Source of the DNA: Thermoplasmatales archaeon SW_10_69_26 | GTDB taxonomy: Archaea; Thermoplasmatota; SW-10-69-26 | Direction of reading: 5' to 3' | NCBI GenBank assembly: GCA_003009755.1 | Contig: PXUB01000019.1 | Coordinates: forward strand, 74,827 to 118,105 | DNA: 43,279 bases | Shown here: positions 9,110 to 26,888 of the stretch, piece by piece | Numbering within the stretch: the stretch's first letter is position 1 | Layout of the letters: every line of letters begins with the position of its first letter | Translations under genes and position numbers: made by a program | Notes under the pieces: generated by a model | Database searches by the model: none | The model's input: only the letters and a program-made list of their open reading frames with translations | Told to the model about the DNA's origin: nothing

Positions 9110-10705
9110 TCAGGAGAGGGGCTTGACCATGTAGGGACCCTCGCGCTCGTAGCCGAGCTTGCGGTAGTACTCGCGGGTGCCGACGCCGGCCATCACGAGC
9201 AGCTTGCCGCGTCCGCGTTCGTGGGCGACGTCCTCGGCGCGGCGCATCAGCGCGGTGCCGTGGCCTTGGTGTTGGTGGGATCGGTCGTCGCCGGAGCCGG
9301 CGAGGGGAACCTCGCTGCCGACGACCTTCAGCTCGCGCACGATCGCCGCACCGTCAACCTCGTCGCGGTGGGCGTCCATGGAGGGGATGCGCACGCGGCA
9401 GTAGCCGACGACGGCGTCCTTGCTCGTGTCCTCGACGGCGAGGAACACCTCCTCGCCCCCGCTGGCCTCGTAGCCGTGCTGGGTCTCCTCGAGATCCAGG
9501 GGTTCCTCGGTGCGACGGGGGGCTTCCCGGCAGCGCAGGCACGAGCACTGGGCGCCCATCTCGTCCCACGCGAGCTCGCGCAGGTTCGTCTTGAACACGC
9601 CGGCGGCGATCTCGTGCGTGGGGATGTCGCGCTCGACGCGCTGCACGCGCACCCACGGTGGGACCATGTCGAGGATCTCGCTCACGAGGTCGGCAGCCTC
9701 CTCGTCACCCAGGGGCTCGAACTCGCCGCGCTGGTGTTGCTCGTGCAGCGCGGTGCCGGGCACGACGAGCGTGGGATAGATCTTCAGCATGTCCGGCCGC
9801 AGCCTGGGATCGTCGAACGTCTGGCGGGCCGTCTCGAGATCCATCTCGCGGGAGGACTCGGGCAGGCCCGGCATCAGGTGGTAGCAGACCTTGAGGCCGG
9901 CATCGCGGGCGGTCTGCGATGCTTCGTAGGTGTCCTGCATCGTGTGGCCGCGGTTCGTGGCCGCCAGCACCTCGTCGTAGACGGTCTGGACACCGATCTC
10001 GATCCGCGTGGTGCCCAGGGCCAGCATGTTGTCGACGTGGGGCTTTTGGCACCAATCCGGCTTGGTCTCGAGCGTGAGCCCGATCCCGCGGGCATCGGCC
10101 GTCTCGTTGCGGCGGTGGGCCTCGGCGAGGTCGGCCGAGCGCTGCTCCTCATCGGTGCCGTGGTCGTTCAGCGCGTCGTAGAGGCTCGTGACGAACCGCT
10201 GTTGATCGTCCCAATCGCGGGCCGGGAACGTGCCGCCCTGGACGATGAGATCGACCTTGTCGACGGGGTGCCCGTTGCGTTCCAGATCCTGCAGCCGCGA
10301 GCGGGCCTGGTCGTAGGCGTCGAACCCGTGGCGGTCGGCCCGCCGGGCGGCCGGCTCCTTGCCGGTGTAGCTTTGCGCGGTCCCCATGCGGGGCCCGCCG
10401 GGGCAGAACGTGCACGTGCCGTGCGGGCAGGCCTCGGGCGGCGCCTGCACGGTCACGACCGCCACACCGGACAGCGAACGAGTTGGCTTCTTCACCAGCA
10501 GCGGCTTGAACGCCTCGCGCTCGTCCTCCGGCAAGGCGTTCAACAGCTTGCTGTTCTTCGGGATCTTGGGGACCTCGTGGTCGCGCGCCGTGCGGATCTT
10601 GAGCTTTTGAACGTCCTCGCGGCTGTCCGGAGGGTCCTCCATCATGCGGTCAACGATGTCCTCGAGGTAGGCGTCCAGGCCCAAGGCAGGCCAAGCCAGG
10701 GGCAT
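9110..10705 (-). CDS. elp3: Elp3, tRNA wobble-uridine carboxymethylating enzyme (radical SAM plus GNAT domain)
   Basis: The product is 531 residues from the ATG at 10705. Archaeal Elp3 works alone on U34 of tRNAs, forming the carboxymethyl side chain from acetyl-CoA by radical chemistry. The radical-SAM cluster motif is C93-x4-C98-x2-C101 (ACPHGTCTFCPGG). Further family text includes RIEIGVQTVYDEVLAATNRG and LKVCYHLMPGLP. A second Cys set (CSCLRC) lies before the C-terminal GNAT acetyltransferase domain, whose acetyl-CoA loop reads QHQGHGTAL. An in-frame ATG at 10768 would add an atypical 21-residue extension. The neighbouring tRNA-Arg(UCU) has a wobble U34, a possible substrate (inference). 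Confidence 0.95.
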   Translation of the reverse strand: MPLAWPALGLDAYLEDIVDRMMEDPPDSREDVQKLKIRTARDHEVPKIPKNSKLLNALPEDEREAFKPLLVKKPTRSLSGVAVVTVQAPPEACPHGTCTFCPGGPRMGTAQSYTGKEPAARRADRHGFDAYDQARSRLQDLERNGHPVDKVDLIVQGGTFPARDWDDQQRFVTSLYDALNDHGTDEEQRSADLAEAHRRNETADARGIGLTLETKPDWCQKPHVDNMLALGTTRIEIGVQTVYDEVLAATNRGHTMQDTYEASQTARDAGLKVCYHLMPGLPESSREMDLETARQTFDDPRLRPDMLKIYPTLVVPGTALHEQHQRGEFEPLGDEEAADLVSEILDMVPPWVRVQRVERDIPTHEIAAGVFKTNLRELAWDEMGAQCSCLRCREAPRRTEEPLDLEETQHGYEASGGEEVFLAVEDTSKDAVVGYCRVRIPSMDAHRDEVDGAAIVRELKVVGSEVPLAGSGDDRSHQHQGHGTALMRRAEDVAHERGRGKLLVMAGVGTREYYRKLGYEREGPYMVKPLS

Positions 10706-10769
10706 CGTCGGGAAGAAGGTTGCGGGGAGGGCGAGGTGGGGTCCAGGTGAGAGCCCGACGGGTCTCATC

Positions 10770-11109
10770 CTGCGAGCCTAGACCTGAACCCTGGAGGCCT
10801 TCCCTCGCTGGTACGCTCGGTCGACCTCCAGATCCGAACGTCCGGCCTCGCTCTGAGGTCTCGGCCGGACGTTCTCTGGGTCGGATGGTGAAGGCCCGAG
10901 ACCGCTTGGTGACGCCGGTCTCGGGATCCGGACGGATCAGAGATCCGTCCTCTTCCGAGGCGAGCGCTGCGGTCCCCGTCTCGCCTCGGAACGCGCTCGC
11001 CGGGATCCGCGGACGAGCCTGGCGTAAATCACCGAACTCGTCCTCTACGGAGACCGTCCACCTTCACCGGTCTCCGGACGAACCCAAGGGTTCTCATCCC
11101 GGCTCGCAG
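10770..11109 (-). ncRNA. candidate structured RNA, about 340 nt, closed by complementary ends
   Basis: The stretch has no convincing gene but holds many strong helices. The ends pair: 10770-10778 with 11101-11109 (9 bp). Next inside, 10786-10791 pairs with 11088-11093 (6 bp). A long-range helix joins 10887-10894 and 11061-11068 (8 bp). Local hairpins are 10791-10797/10825-10831, 10836-10847/10863-10874 (12 bp), 10895-10904/10916-10925 (10 bp), 10930-10938/10942-10950 (9 bp, loop AGA), 10953-10964/10980-10991 (12 bp), 11011-11017/11037-11043, and 11048-11056/11068-11076 (9 bp, competes with the long-range helix). All but the last nest. Strand is not certain; minus is chosen because tRNA-Arg ends 12 nt before it and elp3 follows. 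I did not find RNase P or SRP RNA signature motifs. Confidence 0.5.
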
Positions 11110-11121
11110 CGACCCGGTCAG

Positions 11122-11197
11122 CGCGCTCGCCGGGATTCGAACCCGGGATCCTCGGCTTAGAAGGCCGATGCCTTGGTCCGGACTAGGCTACGAGCGC
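11122..11197 (-). tRNA. tRNA-Arg, anticodon UCU
   Basis: A full cloverleaf can be drawn on the minus strand. The acceptor stem GCGCTCG/CGAGCGC pairs perfectly over 7 bp. The D arm is GCCT/AGGC. The anticodon stem TCGGC/GCCGA encloses the loop CTTCTAA, giving anticodon TCT. The variable loop is GGATC and the T arm is CCGGG-TTCGAAT-CCCGG. The discriminator is G and no CCA is encoded, so the ends need CCA addition. No intron. It decodes AGA and AGG. Hairpin-rich DNA lies on both sides. Confidence 0.95.
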
Positions 11198-11265
11198 TCA
11201 CAGGTGGCACTGGGCTTCGTCATATTAGTGGCCGGTTCCTGTGGGAAAGCGAGGCAGGCGAGACG

Positions 11266-11455
11266 CGGACCGCGGTCCGGATCGCCGGAGTCCCTGTCCG
11301 TCAGGCGGACTCCGGCGAGAGCACGGATCTTCGGTCCGTGCCGACCAGGCGACGGGCGCTCGGGCGGGCACTGACCTTCGCTGTATCCGTGACCGGTGCC
11401 CTCGAGACGCCACCGCACCCCATTCTTTGACGATCGTTGCGGCTCCGGGCGTCTC
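11266..11455. repeat. second chain of hairpins, on the 5' side of tRNA-Arg
   Basis: Consecutive inverted repeats fill this gene-free stretch. CGGACC-GC-GGTCCG lies at 11266-11279. 11282-11293 pairs with 11307-11318 (12 bp). 11321-11329 pairs with 11333-11341 (9 bp with one G-T, loop TTC). 11366-11371 pairs with 11396-11401. 11404-11411 pairs with 11448-11455 (8 bp). They follow each other with hardly a gap. The strand is unknown; if minus, they would form the leader of the tRNA-Arg transcript. The rest of the 341-bp gap (11198-11538) holds only the promoter of the next gene. Confidence 0.55.
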
Positions 11456-11538
11456 CGTCCGCCATCGGCGGCCACGGTCCGCCCCGTCGGTCGTCCGAAA
11501 ACCTCACAACGATAAACGACGCGCGTGTTGGCGGGGGC

Positions 11539-25427: not shown

Positions 25428-25509
25428 CGTTCCCGTATCAAGGGGTGAGCCTACGTCTAGCCTCGGCGGCCTGCGGCGATCGACGCACCGATGGTCGAGT
25501 ACGGGAACG
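25428..25509. repeat. spaced 10-bp inverted repeat
   Basis: CGTTCCCGTA (25428-25437) is complementary to TACGGGAACG (25500-25509). The 62-nt interior includes smaller complementary GCC/GGC stretches. It lies on the left side of the hairpin chain next to cdc6. Apart from this and that chain, I see no gene in the 421-bp gap 25274-25694. Confidence 0.5.
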
Positions 25510-25542
25510 GGACCGCGCTGAGCCATCGTTTCGTTCGCTCTC

Positions 25543-25702
25543 GTGACGACCGCGCAATCCTCGCCGGTCGTCACTCCAAGCGTCGAGCCCGCACGGTTGA
25601 CACCGGGCTAGCGACGCTCGAGATTCGAACGAGCCGCTCCACGGTTGGGCCGGCTCGTTCTCTTGCGTGACGACCGCGTGATGTATGTCGGTCGTCACGC
25701 AA
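25543..25702. repeat. chain of four hairpins next to and into the cdc6 3' end
   Basis: Four inverted repeats in a row. H1 is GTGACGACCG at 25543-25552 with 25565-25574 (10 bp, 12-nt loop). H2 is 25580-25591 with 25604-25617 (12 bp with a 2-nt bulge, 12-nt loop). H3 is GAACGAGCCG at 25627-25636 with 25651-25660 (10 bp, 14-nt loop). H4 is TTGCGTGACGACCG at 25663-25676 with 25689-25702 (14 bp, 12-nt loop). H1 and H4 share the 10-base arm GTGACGACCG but differ in loop. H2 and H3 share CACGGTTG in their loops. The cdc6 stop codon lies inside the H4 arm. Confidence 0.75.
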
Positions 25703-26888
25703 TCTCGCCGGCTTCGAGGCGCTCGCCGAGGTGCTCCTCGATCTGGTGGGCCGGGGCATCGGGCAGGCTCATCAGCGTCGTCGTGCCGACGACGCCCTCG
25801 CCGGAGCGCTTGGCCTCGATCAGGCCCAGCGCGTCGAGATCCTGGATGTAGGTCCAGAACTGCGTGTGGCCGCGCGGCTCGGCGTCGAACTCCTCGCAGG
25901 CGGCCTCGTAGGCGGACTTGACGTCGCCGGTCTTGGCGTAGGCGCCGCCGCGGTCGAGCACGCGAGCCACGCCCAGCAGCGTGAGGGCGTGTTGCTCGTC
26001 GAGCTCCTCCAGGCGTTCGTCGAGGATGACAGGGTGGATGTGGGCCTTGGCGGCGCGCACGTGCTCGGGAACGACCTGGTCCTCGCTGCGCTCGTCGGCG
26101 GCTTGCCCGGCCTCGTGCAGCAGCTCGATCGCGAACCGGGCGTCACCGTCCTCGCTGGCCAGGTCGGCCACCAGATCCACGACGCCGTCCTGCACCGTGT
26201 TGGGGTGGAAGGCCAGGTCGACACGTTGCTCGGCGATCGAGCCCAGCTCCTCGGCCCCGTAGGCGTCCAGCTGCAGCGTGTTCGTCTGCTTGAACGTGGA
26301 CTTGGTGCCCTCGTCCATCAGCAGACGCACGTTCTCCTGGCTGACGAGGATCACCGAGACGCCGAACTCGCCGCCGCCGGTCTCCTCGTTGAACCGCGTG
26401 AGGTGATAGACGAGGTCCGCATCGTCGCGCTTGATCAACACGTCGACCTCGTCGAGCACGACGATCAGGTGCGAGCGGTTGCGCTTGAGCTGCTTGGCGA
26501 GCTGCTCGAGCATCTCGGTCGTCGAGAACCCGCGATCGGGGAAGCCCGGATCGAACTCGTTGACGATCTGCAGCAGCGCCGAGGAGGTCGTCGACCGGCG
26601 CCGACAGTTGACGTGCACCGTCTCGAGGTTGATCTCTCGGCTGTCGGCCGCGCGCTCGAACTCGCGACAGAAGCGCTTGCTGAGCGCCGTCTTGCCGGAC
26701 CCGACGGGCCCACGGACGAGCATCGACTGCTGGGTGCCCTCCTCGAACACCGACCGCATCTGGCGGGTCATCTCCCGCATCTCGTCCTCGCGGTGCGGGA
26801 GCTCGTCGGGGACGTAATCGAACCCCAGCTTGCTCTCGTCCTTGAACACGGACGGGCCACGGAGGGTCTCCTCGATCACGTCCCGCAT
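25695..26888 (-). CDS. cdc6: Orc1/Cdc6 replication initiator
   Basis: The product is 397 residues, typical for archaeal Orc1/Cdc6. It binds origin repeats and loads the MCM helicase. AAA+ Walker A GPVGSGKT is at 60-67, Walker B LDEVD around 145-149. Sensor text follows (VSVILVSQENVRLLMDEGTK) and the AAA+ lid (GDARFAIELLHEAGQAADER). The C-terminal winged helix covers about 300-390 (YIQDLDALGLIEAKRSGEGV, VGTTTLMSLPDAP). The ATG at 26888 has a TATA box about 29 nt upstream. Archaeal origins usually lie beside cdc6, so both flanks are worth checking for origin boxes. Confidence 0.96.
   Translation of the reverse strand: MRDVIEETLRGPSVFKDESKLGFDYVPDELPHREDEMREMTRQMRSVFEEGTQQSMLVRGPVGSGKTALSKRFCREFERAADSREINLETVHVNCRRRSTTSSALLQIVNEFDPGFPDRGFSTTEMLEQLAKQLKRNRSHLIVVLDEVDVLIKRDDADLVYHLTRFNEETGGGEFGVSVILVSQENVRLLMDEGTKSTFKQTNTLQLDAYGAEELGSIAEQRVDLAFHPNTVQDGVVDLVADLASEDGDARFAIELLHEAGQAADERSEDQVVPEHVRAAKAHIHPVILDERLEELDEQHALTLLGVARVLDRGGAYAKTGDVKSAYEAACEEFDAEPRGHTQFWTYIQDLDALGLIEAKRSGEGVVGTTTLMSLPDAPAHQIEEHLGERLEAGEIA

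Follow-up and report, generated by a model that had tools for sequence, protein, structure and literature searches.

A probable array of tRNA-linked repeats in the 3' trailer of an archaeal tRNA-Arg gene

Organization of the tRNA-Arg trailer

The window, i.e., the whole stretch of 43,279 nt from Thermoplasmatales archaeon SW_10_69_26 that was analyzed, carries tRNA-Arg(TCT) at 11121-11197, identified with ARAGORN and Rfam, and elp3 at 9110-10768. The block studied here sits between them, as originally placed, and since both genes are encoded on the minus strand it constitutes the 3' trailer of the tRNA gene.

The part of the block adjoining the tRNA was a single complete unit of 129 nt (10992-11120, minus), delimited by the tRNA-end repeat, the unit list and a match to the covariance model R1 described below. 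It consisted of a spacer, an inverted copy of the T-arm (GGATGAGAACC), the GGTTCG motif, two variable hairpins and, last, the copied 3' end of tRNA-Arg. The source of this copy is the last 18 nt of the tRNA (11122-11139, minus), comprising the 3' strands of the T-stem and of the acceptor stem; the copy itself, CGGATCCCGGCGAGCGCG (10992-11009, minus), lies 130 nt from the original 3' end and agrees with it in 17 of 18 nt (15 contiguous, one mismatch). A conserved box, GGATGAGAACCCTTGGGTTCG (11079-11099, minus), in which the inverted T-arm copy is followed by the T-arm 5' strand, encloses helix P2 (11088-11093 with 11080-11085, minus). Pattern matching revealed eight copies of the box in this genome, and it was also present in bacteria. 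The 5' strand of P1, CCGGGAT (11096-11102, minus), is complementary to ATCCCGG at two places, one within the tRNA (11130-11136) and the other within the copy downstream of it (11000-11006). The two variable hairpins, supported by sequence and covariation, are P3 of 9 bp (11048-11076, formed by 11068-11076 with 11048-11056, minus), whose stem sequence varies between units with the pairing kept, and P4 (11011-11043, formed by 11037-11043 with 11011-11017, minus).

The remainder of the block (10769-10991, minus) was a degenerate second repeat stretch with hairpins at 10953-10991, 10930-10950, 10895-10925 and 10836-10874. Positions 10786-10873 showed 87% identity to arrays on contigs C34 (behind tRNA-Arg(CCT)) and C17. 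Upstream of tRNA-Arg (11198-11480, minus), further long perfect hairpins were noticed, including one of 12 bp at 11282-11318. Elsewhere in the window, at 25440-25760, a cluster of perfect hairpins (10-14 bp) with the inverted T-arm-like sequence GATTCGAACGAG and no tRNA nearby is possibly the remnant of a tRNA-linked repeat (TLR).

Folding of the block

The original prediction had regarded the 340 nt between the two genes as one structured RNA of an undescribed kind, closed by its complementary ends. All the stems named there were found in the sequence, among them a closing 9-bp helix CTGCGAGCC/GGCTCGCAG (11101-11109 with 10770-10778, minus), a long-range 8-bp helix GGTGAAGG/CCTTCACC (11061-11068 with 10887-10894, minus) and local perfect hairpins of 7-12 bp. 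Folding of 10769-11120 against dinucleotide shuffles gave a z-score of -6.7 for the minus strand (that of tRNA-Arg and elp3) and -5.8 for the plus strand, none of the 100 shuffles being equally stable. The raw energy was not exceptional for this 70% GC window, where 12 of 246 equal-sized segments had lower-energy folds. An Rfam search around the block matched the tRNA only, and none of the other families came near its gathering score within the block. The view that the block is neither RNase P RNA nor SRP RNA was borne out, as both were located elsewhere in the genome (RF00373 on C30 and RF01857 on C25), above their cut-offs; these RNAs are of the archaeal type, so the host is also marked by them as an archaeon.

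Presence and nesting of the stems and the minus-strand z-score speak for a single new 340-nt RNA, but the repeat structure already contradicts its main point and this reading is hardly tenable. The block is a mosaic of one repeat unit and degenerate repeat material, and its pieces occur separately elsewhere. Both the closing and the long-range helix were found at this locus only, whereas the recurring pairing is that of the inverted T-arm with the tRNA 3'-end copy. Nor is the kind undescribed, the layout being that of the E. coli tRNA-linked repeats and of RtT RNA. The proposed role at the RNA level survived in part: the block contains a structured element on the tRNA strand that probably acts or arises as RNA, but the proximity to elp3 is incidental because sister arrays lie behind tRNA genes elsewhere in the genome.

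Related arrays in the genome and in relatives

Comparison of the block with the genome gave 16 partial matches besides itself, several of them adjoining other tRNA genes: tRNA-Arg(CCT) on C34, tRNA-Arg(TCG) on C32 and tRNA-Ser(GCT) on C39. Stretches around tRNA genes and around the matches were then read (41 tRNA loci), and a common unit was recognized, composed of the tRNA 3' end, a spacer, the reverse complement of that end, a GAACC..GGTTC hairpin, two larger hairpins and a 3'-end copy. The units were mostly 109-135 nt long, some of them doubled or in tandem. One complete unit in the window and three behind tRNA-Arg(TCG) agree with the one to five per locus that characterize TLRs.

The specificity of the copies was assessed by searching for exact copies of at least 11 nt of the last 19 nt of a tRNA within 400 nt downstream. 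Such a copy of the gene's own 3' end followed 17 of 39 tRNA genes (about 4 in 10) in comparison to 4 of 1444 non-cognate pairs; for inverted copies the corresponding values were 14 of 39 and 7 of 1444. Exact 3'-end copies of 16-19 nt were present at several other tRNAs of the genome. The same family is represented by one genome (75% complete), in which none of 21 tRNAs had a cognate copy. Within the same class, genome G002 was clearly positive (5 of 14 versus 2 of 174), and the small samples from G003, G004 and G006 contained one or two examples per genome.

Upstream of Arg-CCT, Arg-TCG and Ser-TGA, exact copies of 23-25 nt of their own 5' ends were found (own 3 of 40, non-cognate 1 of 1534), interleaved with hairpins and inverted copies of the anticodon-stem strand. 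These mirror arrays (L042 4990-5300, minus; L043 4740-5100; L072, upstream of tRNA-Ser(TGA)) are made up of tRNA nt 1 to approximately 24, hairpins, and then nt 25-38 with the inverted anticodon-stem strand. Single examples were noted in G003 (L145) and G004 (L161). No description of this upstream form was found in the literature searched, which included few subscription journals.

Several arrays of this genome were devoid of a tRNA (L041 3790-4005 and L046 4080-4330, both on C17; L044 4500-4650 and 8290-8420 on C9). The block on C17 begins at an end resembling that of tRNA-Arg(CCT) and runs up to one resembling that of tRNA-Arg(TCT), and C9 has two near-identical hairpin clusters approximately 3.8 kb apart. 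Nearly whole pseudo-copies of the tRNA occurred at tRNA-Leu TAA (L086), tRNA-Ser TGA (L072) and tRNA-Val TAC (L053), interrupted by hairpin pairs at the anticodon, the variable region or the T-loop (with, e.g., nt 1-51, 52-70 and 69-85 apart).

Covariation within the units

Fourteen units, each reaching from its inverted T-arm up to the copy that follows, shared the same four helices. By pair counting for P2-P4, 86% of the cells were paired and 56 two-sided changes were scored versus 19.5 ± 3.4 in shuffles and at most 17 with the partners slid, the units being paralogues of one genome whose relatedness is controlled by the slide test alone. The hairpins covary between these paralogous copies. 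The stems were about 98% Watson-Crick. Among the mismatches on the tRNA strand, 14 were G.T and 3 were A.C in this genome (one-sided p of 0.006), an excess of G.T that suggests selection on RNA of that strand. The ratio in relatives was 12 to 10, with no excess, and the counts in bacteria were too few; the G.U asymmetry was for these reasons dropped as a proof of RNA. Several archaeal P4 hairpins had a GA/GA internal loop (CGAGC..GCGAG) similar to the tandem GA of the tyrT repeat, where the framing helix has covariation support (PMC8250186).

Occurrence in other genomes

The motif derived from the archaeal units, GGATGAGAACCC N0-4 GGTTCG, was scanned over the GTDB species genomes and matched at least 118 stretches. 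Those listed came from Paenibacillus, Sphingobacterium, Bacteroidales, Opitutales, Lentisphaerae, Alpha-, Beta- and Gammaproteobacteria, Chlamydiae, Saccharibacteria and one Thermoplasmata archaeon. Among the 96 matches listed (80 loci), a tRNA of the same strand was present within 600 nt upstream in 74 and a tRNA of the opposite strand was near in one; no tRNA was in view in 21, some of these lying at locus edges and some probably arising by chance. A further tRNA 3'-end copy followed in 55 of the 96 matches listed. Units also occurred in tandem, with Paenibacillus sp. OVF10 having an array of four and an alphaproteobacterium one of three. The exact box was present in one of 293 genomes of the window's phylum, and its history there may involve inheritance, transfer or convergence. 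A single motif match was obtained in 2.9 million viral contigs, and a phage origin was set aside. At several bacterial loci (L202 5380-5900, L164 2980-3530, L216, L217 and L206), the intrinsic terminator of the tRNA was repeated inside each TLR unit; the tRNAs concerned were mostly Ser or Arg.

The covariance model R1 was built from 26 bacterial units and included neither enteric tyrT nor archaeal sequences. It detected the window unit (10991-11107, minus) with 34.7 bits and E of 3e-6, all four E. coli RtT copies with 26.6-31.4 bits, the Thermoplasmata locus L209 with 42.4 bits and additional trailers behind tRNAs of this genome. All seven genome-wide matches at E <= 0.001 lay in tRNA trailers (Arg-TCG three times, Leu-TAA, Arg-TCT of the window, Leu-TAG and Met), and none of them was found by the Rfam RtT model; in 30 relatives R1 gave no match at E <= 0.001. 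Archaeal matches bearing the motif are partly expected, since the bacterial units had been chosen with the archaeal motif. The E. coli copies lack a match to that motif and therefore represent the independent part of the test.

Interpretation of the repeats

On the sequence comparisons, we regard the block as very probably an archaeal TLR array, too divergent for the Rfam RtT model; this confidence refers mainly to the TLR identity. That a processed RNA with any function results is put forward more tentatively, at somewhat short of an even chance. The product would most likely be an RNA that is processed from the trailer, soon decays and exerts, at best, some modest regulation coupled to transcription of the tRNA. 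The unit would be transcribed as the 3' trailer of the pre-tRNA and fold into a T/acceptor-like helix P1 bearing P2-P4. As every unit terminates in a true 3' end of a tRNA, its release may be effected by the enzymes of tRNA 3'-end maturation, and recombination between the repeated ends might then give rise to tandem units. The strict relation to the tRNA strand, taken together with the E. coli data, favours an RNA. In equilibrium folding, the trailer was predicted to capture the authentic 3' end of the tRNA, with no release by the downstream copy. Such a capture would be costly if the unit were fully transcribed and would count against a processed trailer; unless transcription seldom extends that far, the tRNA would have to be protected by co-transcriptional folding together with early cleavage. 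The lack of Rfam RtT matches in this genome and the presence of the exact box in only one of the 293 genomes of the phylum also weigh against the TLR reading. The same predictions bear on a maturation switch, in which the inverted T-arm would pair with the real tRNA 3' end to block it or with the downstream copy to free it. The units allow either pairing, in this genome in a locus-specific manner, and with 45 nt of trailer added the probability of the acceptor stem fell to <=0.06 for 11 of the 14 cases. The downstream copy, however, never restored the acceptor stem (0.00 in 14 of 14), and in bacterial units the complementarity beyond the T-stem was weak (mean run of 1.8 nt versus 1.1 nt), which makes a switch very unlikely. 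On this equilibrium folding, rescue of the tRNA from an antisense trailer by the downstream copy was unsupported.

The main rival of the processed trailer RNA is a functionless by-product of replication, generated by template switching and slippage at the tRNA gene, which, itself composed of inverted repeats, would yield perfect hairpins as well as copies of its arms in direct and inverted orientation. Direct and inverted copies specific to each tRNA, stems as fully Watson-Crick as expected of fresh fold-back copies, similar hairpin clusters without a tRNA, and copying of 5' and middle pieces of tRNAs all agree with such an origin. The order of parts, the box and the spacing nevertheless recur from Paenibacillus to Thermoplasmata to E. 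coli, and random switching should not preserve GGATGAGAACC, with its central GA non-inverted, in so many lineages. We consider the neutral origin rather unlikely; it overlaps with the processed-trailer reading, so the confidences in the two need not add up to one. Still less probable is the footprint of casposon- or integrase-like mini-elements at tRNA 3' ends, with the repeated end being a target-site duplication or an att core. The tRNA 3' end is also the target of many tRNA-targeting integrases, and blocks have spread from one tRNA-Arg locus to another as well as to C17. Furthermore, the duplicated stretch corresponds to the casposon target of 14-15 bp at the tRNA 3' end (PMC6614799). Against a mobile element, the inserts behind different tRNAs had no common ends beyond the tRNA-derived sequence (unit list, by eye), each of them held an inverted copy of its own tRNA, and the viral contigs gave only the one match. 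A casposon or CRISPR-like array as such was set aside on account of the unshared insert ends and the locus-specific inverted copies.

The occurrence of the TLR layout behind tRNAs in Firmicutes, Bacteroidota, Verrucomicrobia, Proteobacteria, Chlamydiae, Saccharibacteria and an archaeon implies that the layout is widespread either as an RNA class or as the result of mutation at tRNA genes, and comparative genomics could separate the two. A single RNA class shared by bacteria and archaea, linked to many isotypes and involved in pre-tRNA maturation, to which archaea add the upstream mirror form with 5' pieces, seems improbable to us at present. Trailers of this type call for caution against annotation as single new RNAs or as tRNA pseudogenes.

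Comparison with known systems

TLRs have been known since 1978, according to the studies cited in PMC8144298 (Egan and Landy 1978, Rudd 1999). In E. coli, 22 TLRs are present at ten loci and share 18-19 bp with the 3' end of the upstream gene; no function is known, an early claim concerning recovery from starvation having been withdrawn later, and the 5S-linked TLRs are transcribed and processed, both Hfq and CsrA binding to them (PMC8144298). RtT has also been reported in Pasteurellaceae (PMC4986893). No description of TLRs in archaea or across phyla was found in a literature search that covered few subscription journals; the reachable literature places TLRs in Enterobacterales only (RtT also in Pasteurellaceae), and an archaeal TLR lies outside this described range.

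Other repeats resemble the window unit in part. The RrA/RrB/RrF sRNAs of the E. coli rRNA operons (PMC8144298) belong to the TLR family and repeat the end of the upstream stable RNA but lie behind 5S rRNA; in E. coli they bind Hfq and CsrA. REP/BIME palindromes also form clustered intergenic hairpins, and rttR was entered as REP-containing in a REP survey (PMC12306157), whereas units of the window type keep to the strand of the tRNA and include ends derived from a tRNA. Casposon insertions duplicate the tRNA 3' end as well; here, no shared element with inverted ends was seen between the duplications (unit list, by eye), and the inverted copy was locus-specific.

RtT RNA (RF00391) has a closing helix, in which the inverted T-arm pairs with the tRNA 3' end that follows, and a GGAUGAGAA..GGUUCGA core, both as in the archaeal units. 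The Rfam RtT model gave no match in this genome at E <= 0.001 or in the window at E <= 10, and the window unit did not reach the gathering threshold, whereas the E. coli control matched. This model recognizes four copies at K-12 tyrT, and its consensus closing helix equals the inverted T-arm with the next 3'-end copy. The repeats read at that locus are ordered GGGGAAGGATGAGAAGCTTC..AAGGTTCGA, hairpins, AATCCTTCCCCCACCACCA, the same as the archaeal units.

The archaeal repeats differ from E. coli TLRs in their host, in their presence behind 17 of 39 tRNA genes of many isotypes (ten loci in E. coli), in the stem sequences, in the lack of CCA in the copies, in the absence of the GATGAGA form of the box from some units and in the occurrence of some upstream arrays of 5' pieces. 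A TLR is expected immediately downstream of a gene for tRNA or 5S, in the same orientation and with 18-19 bp of 3'-end identity; here, the unit (10992-11120, minus) follows tRNA-Arg (11121-11197, minus) with 17 of 18 nt identical. As with the tyrT/tyrV repeats of E. coli, the units stand directly behind the tRNA on the same strand, contain the inverted T-arm box, GGTTCG and hairpins, occur in tandem and are closed by a copy of the tRNA 3' end.
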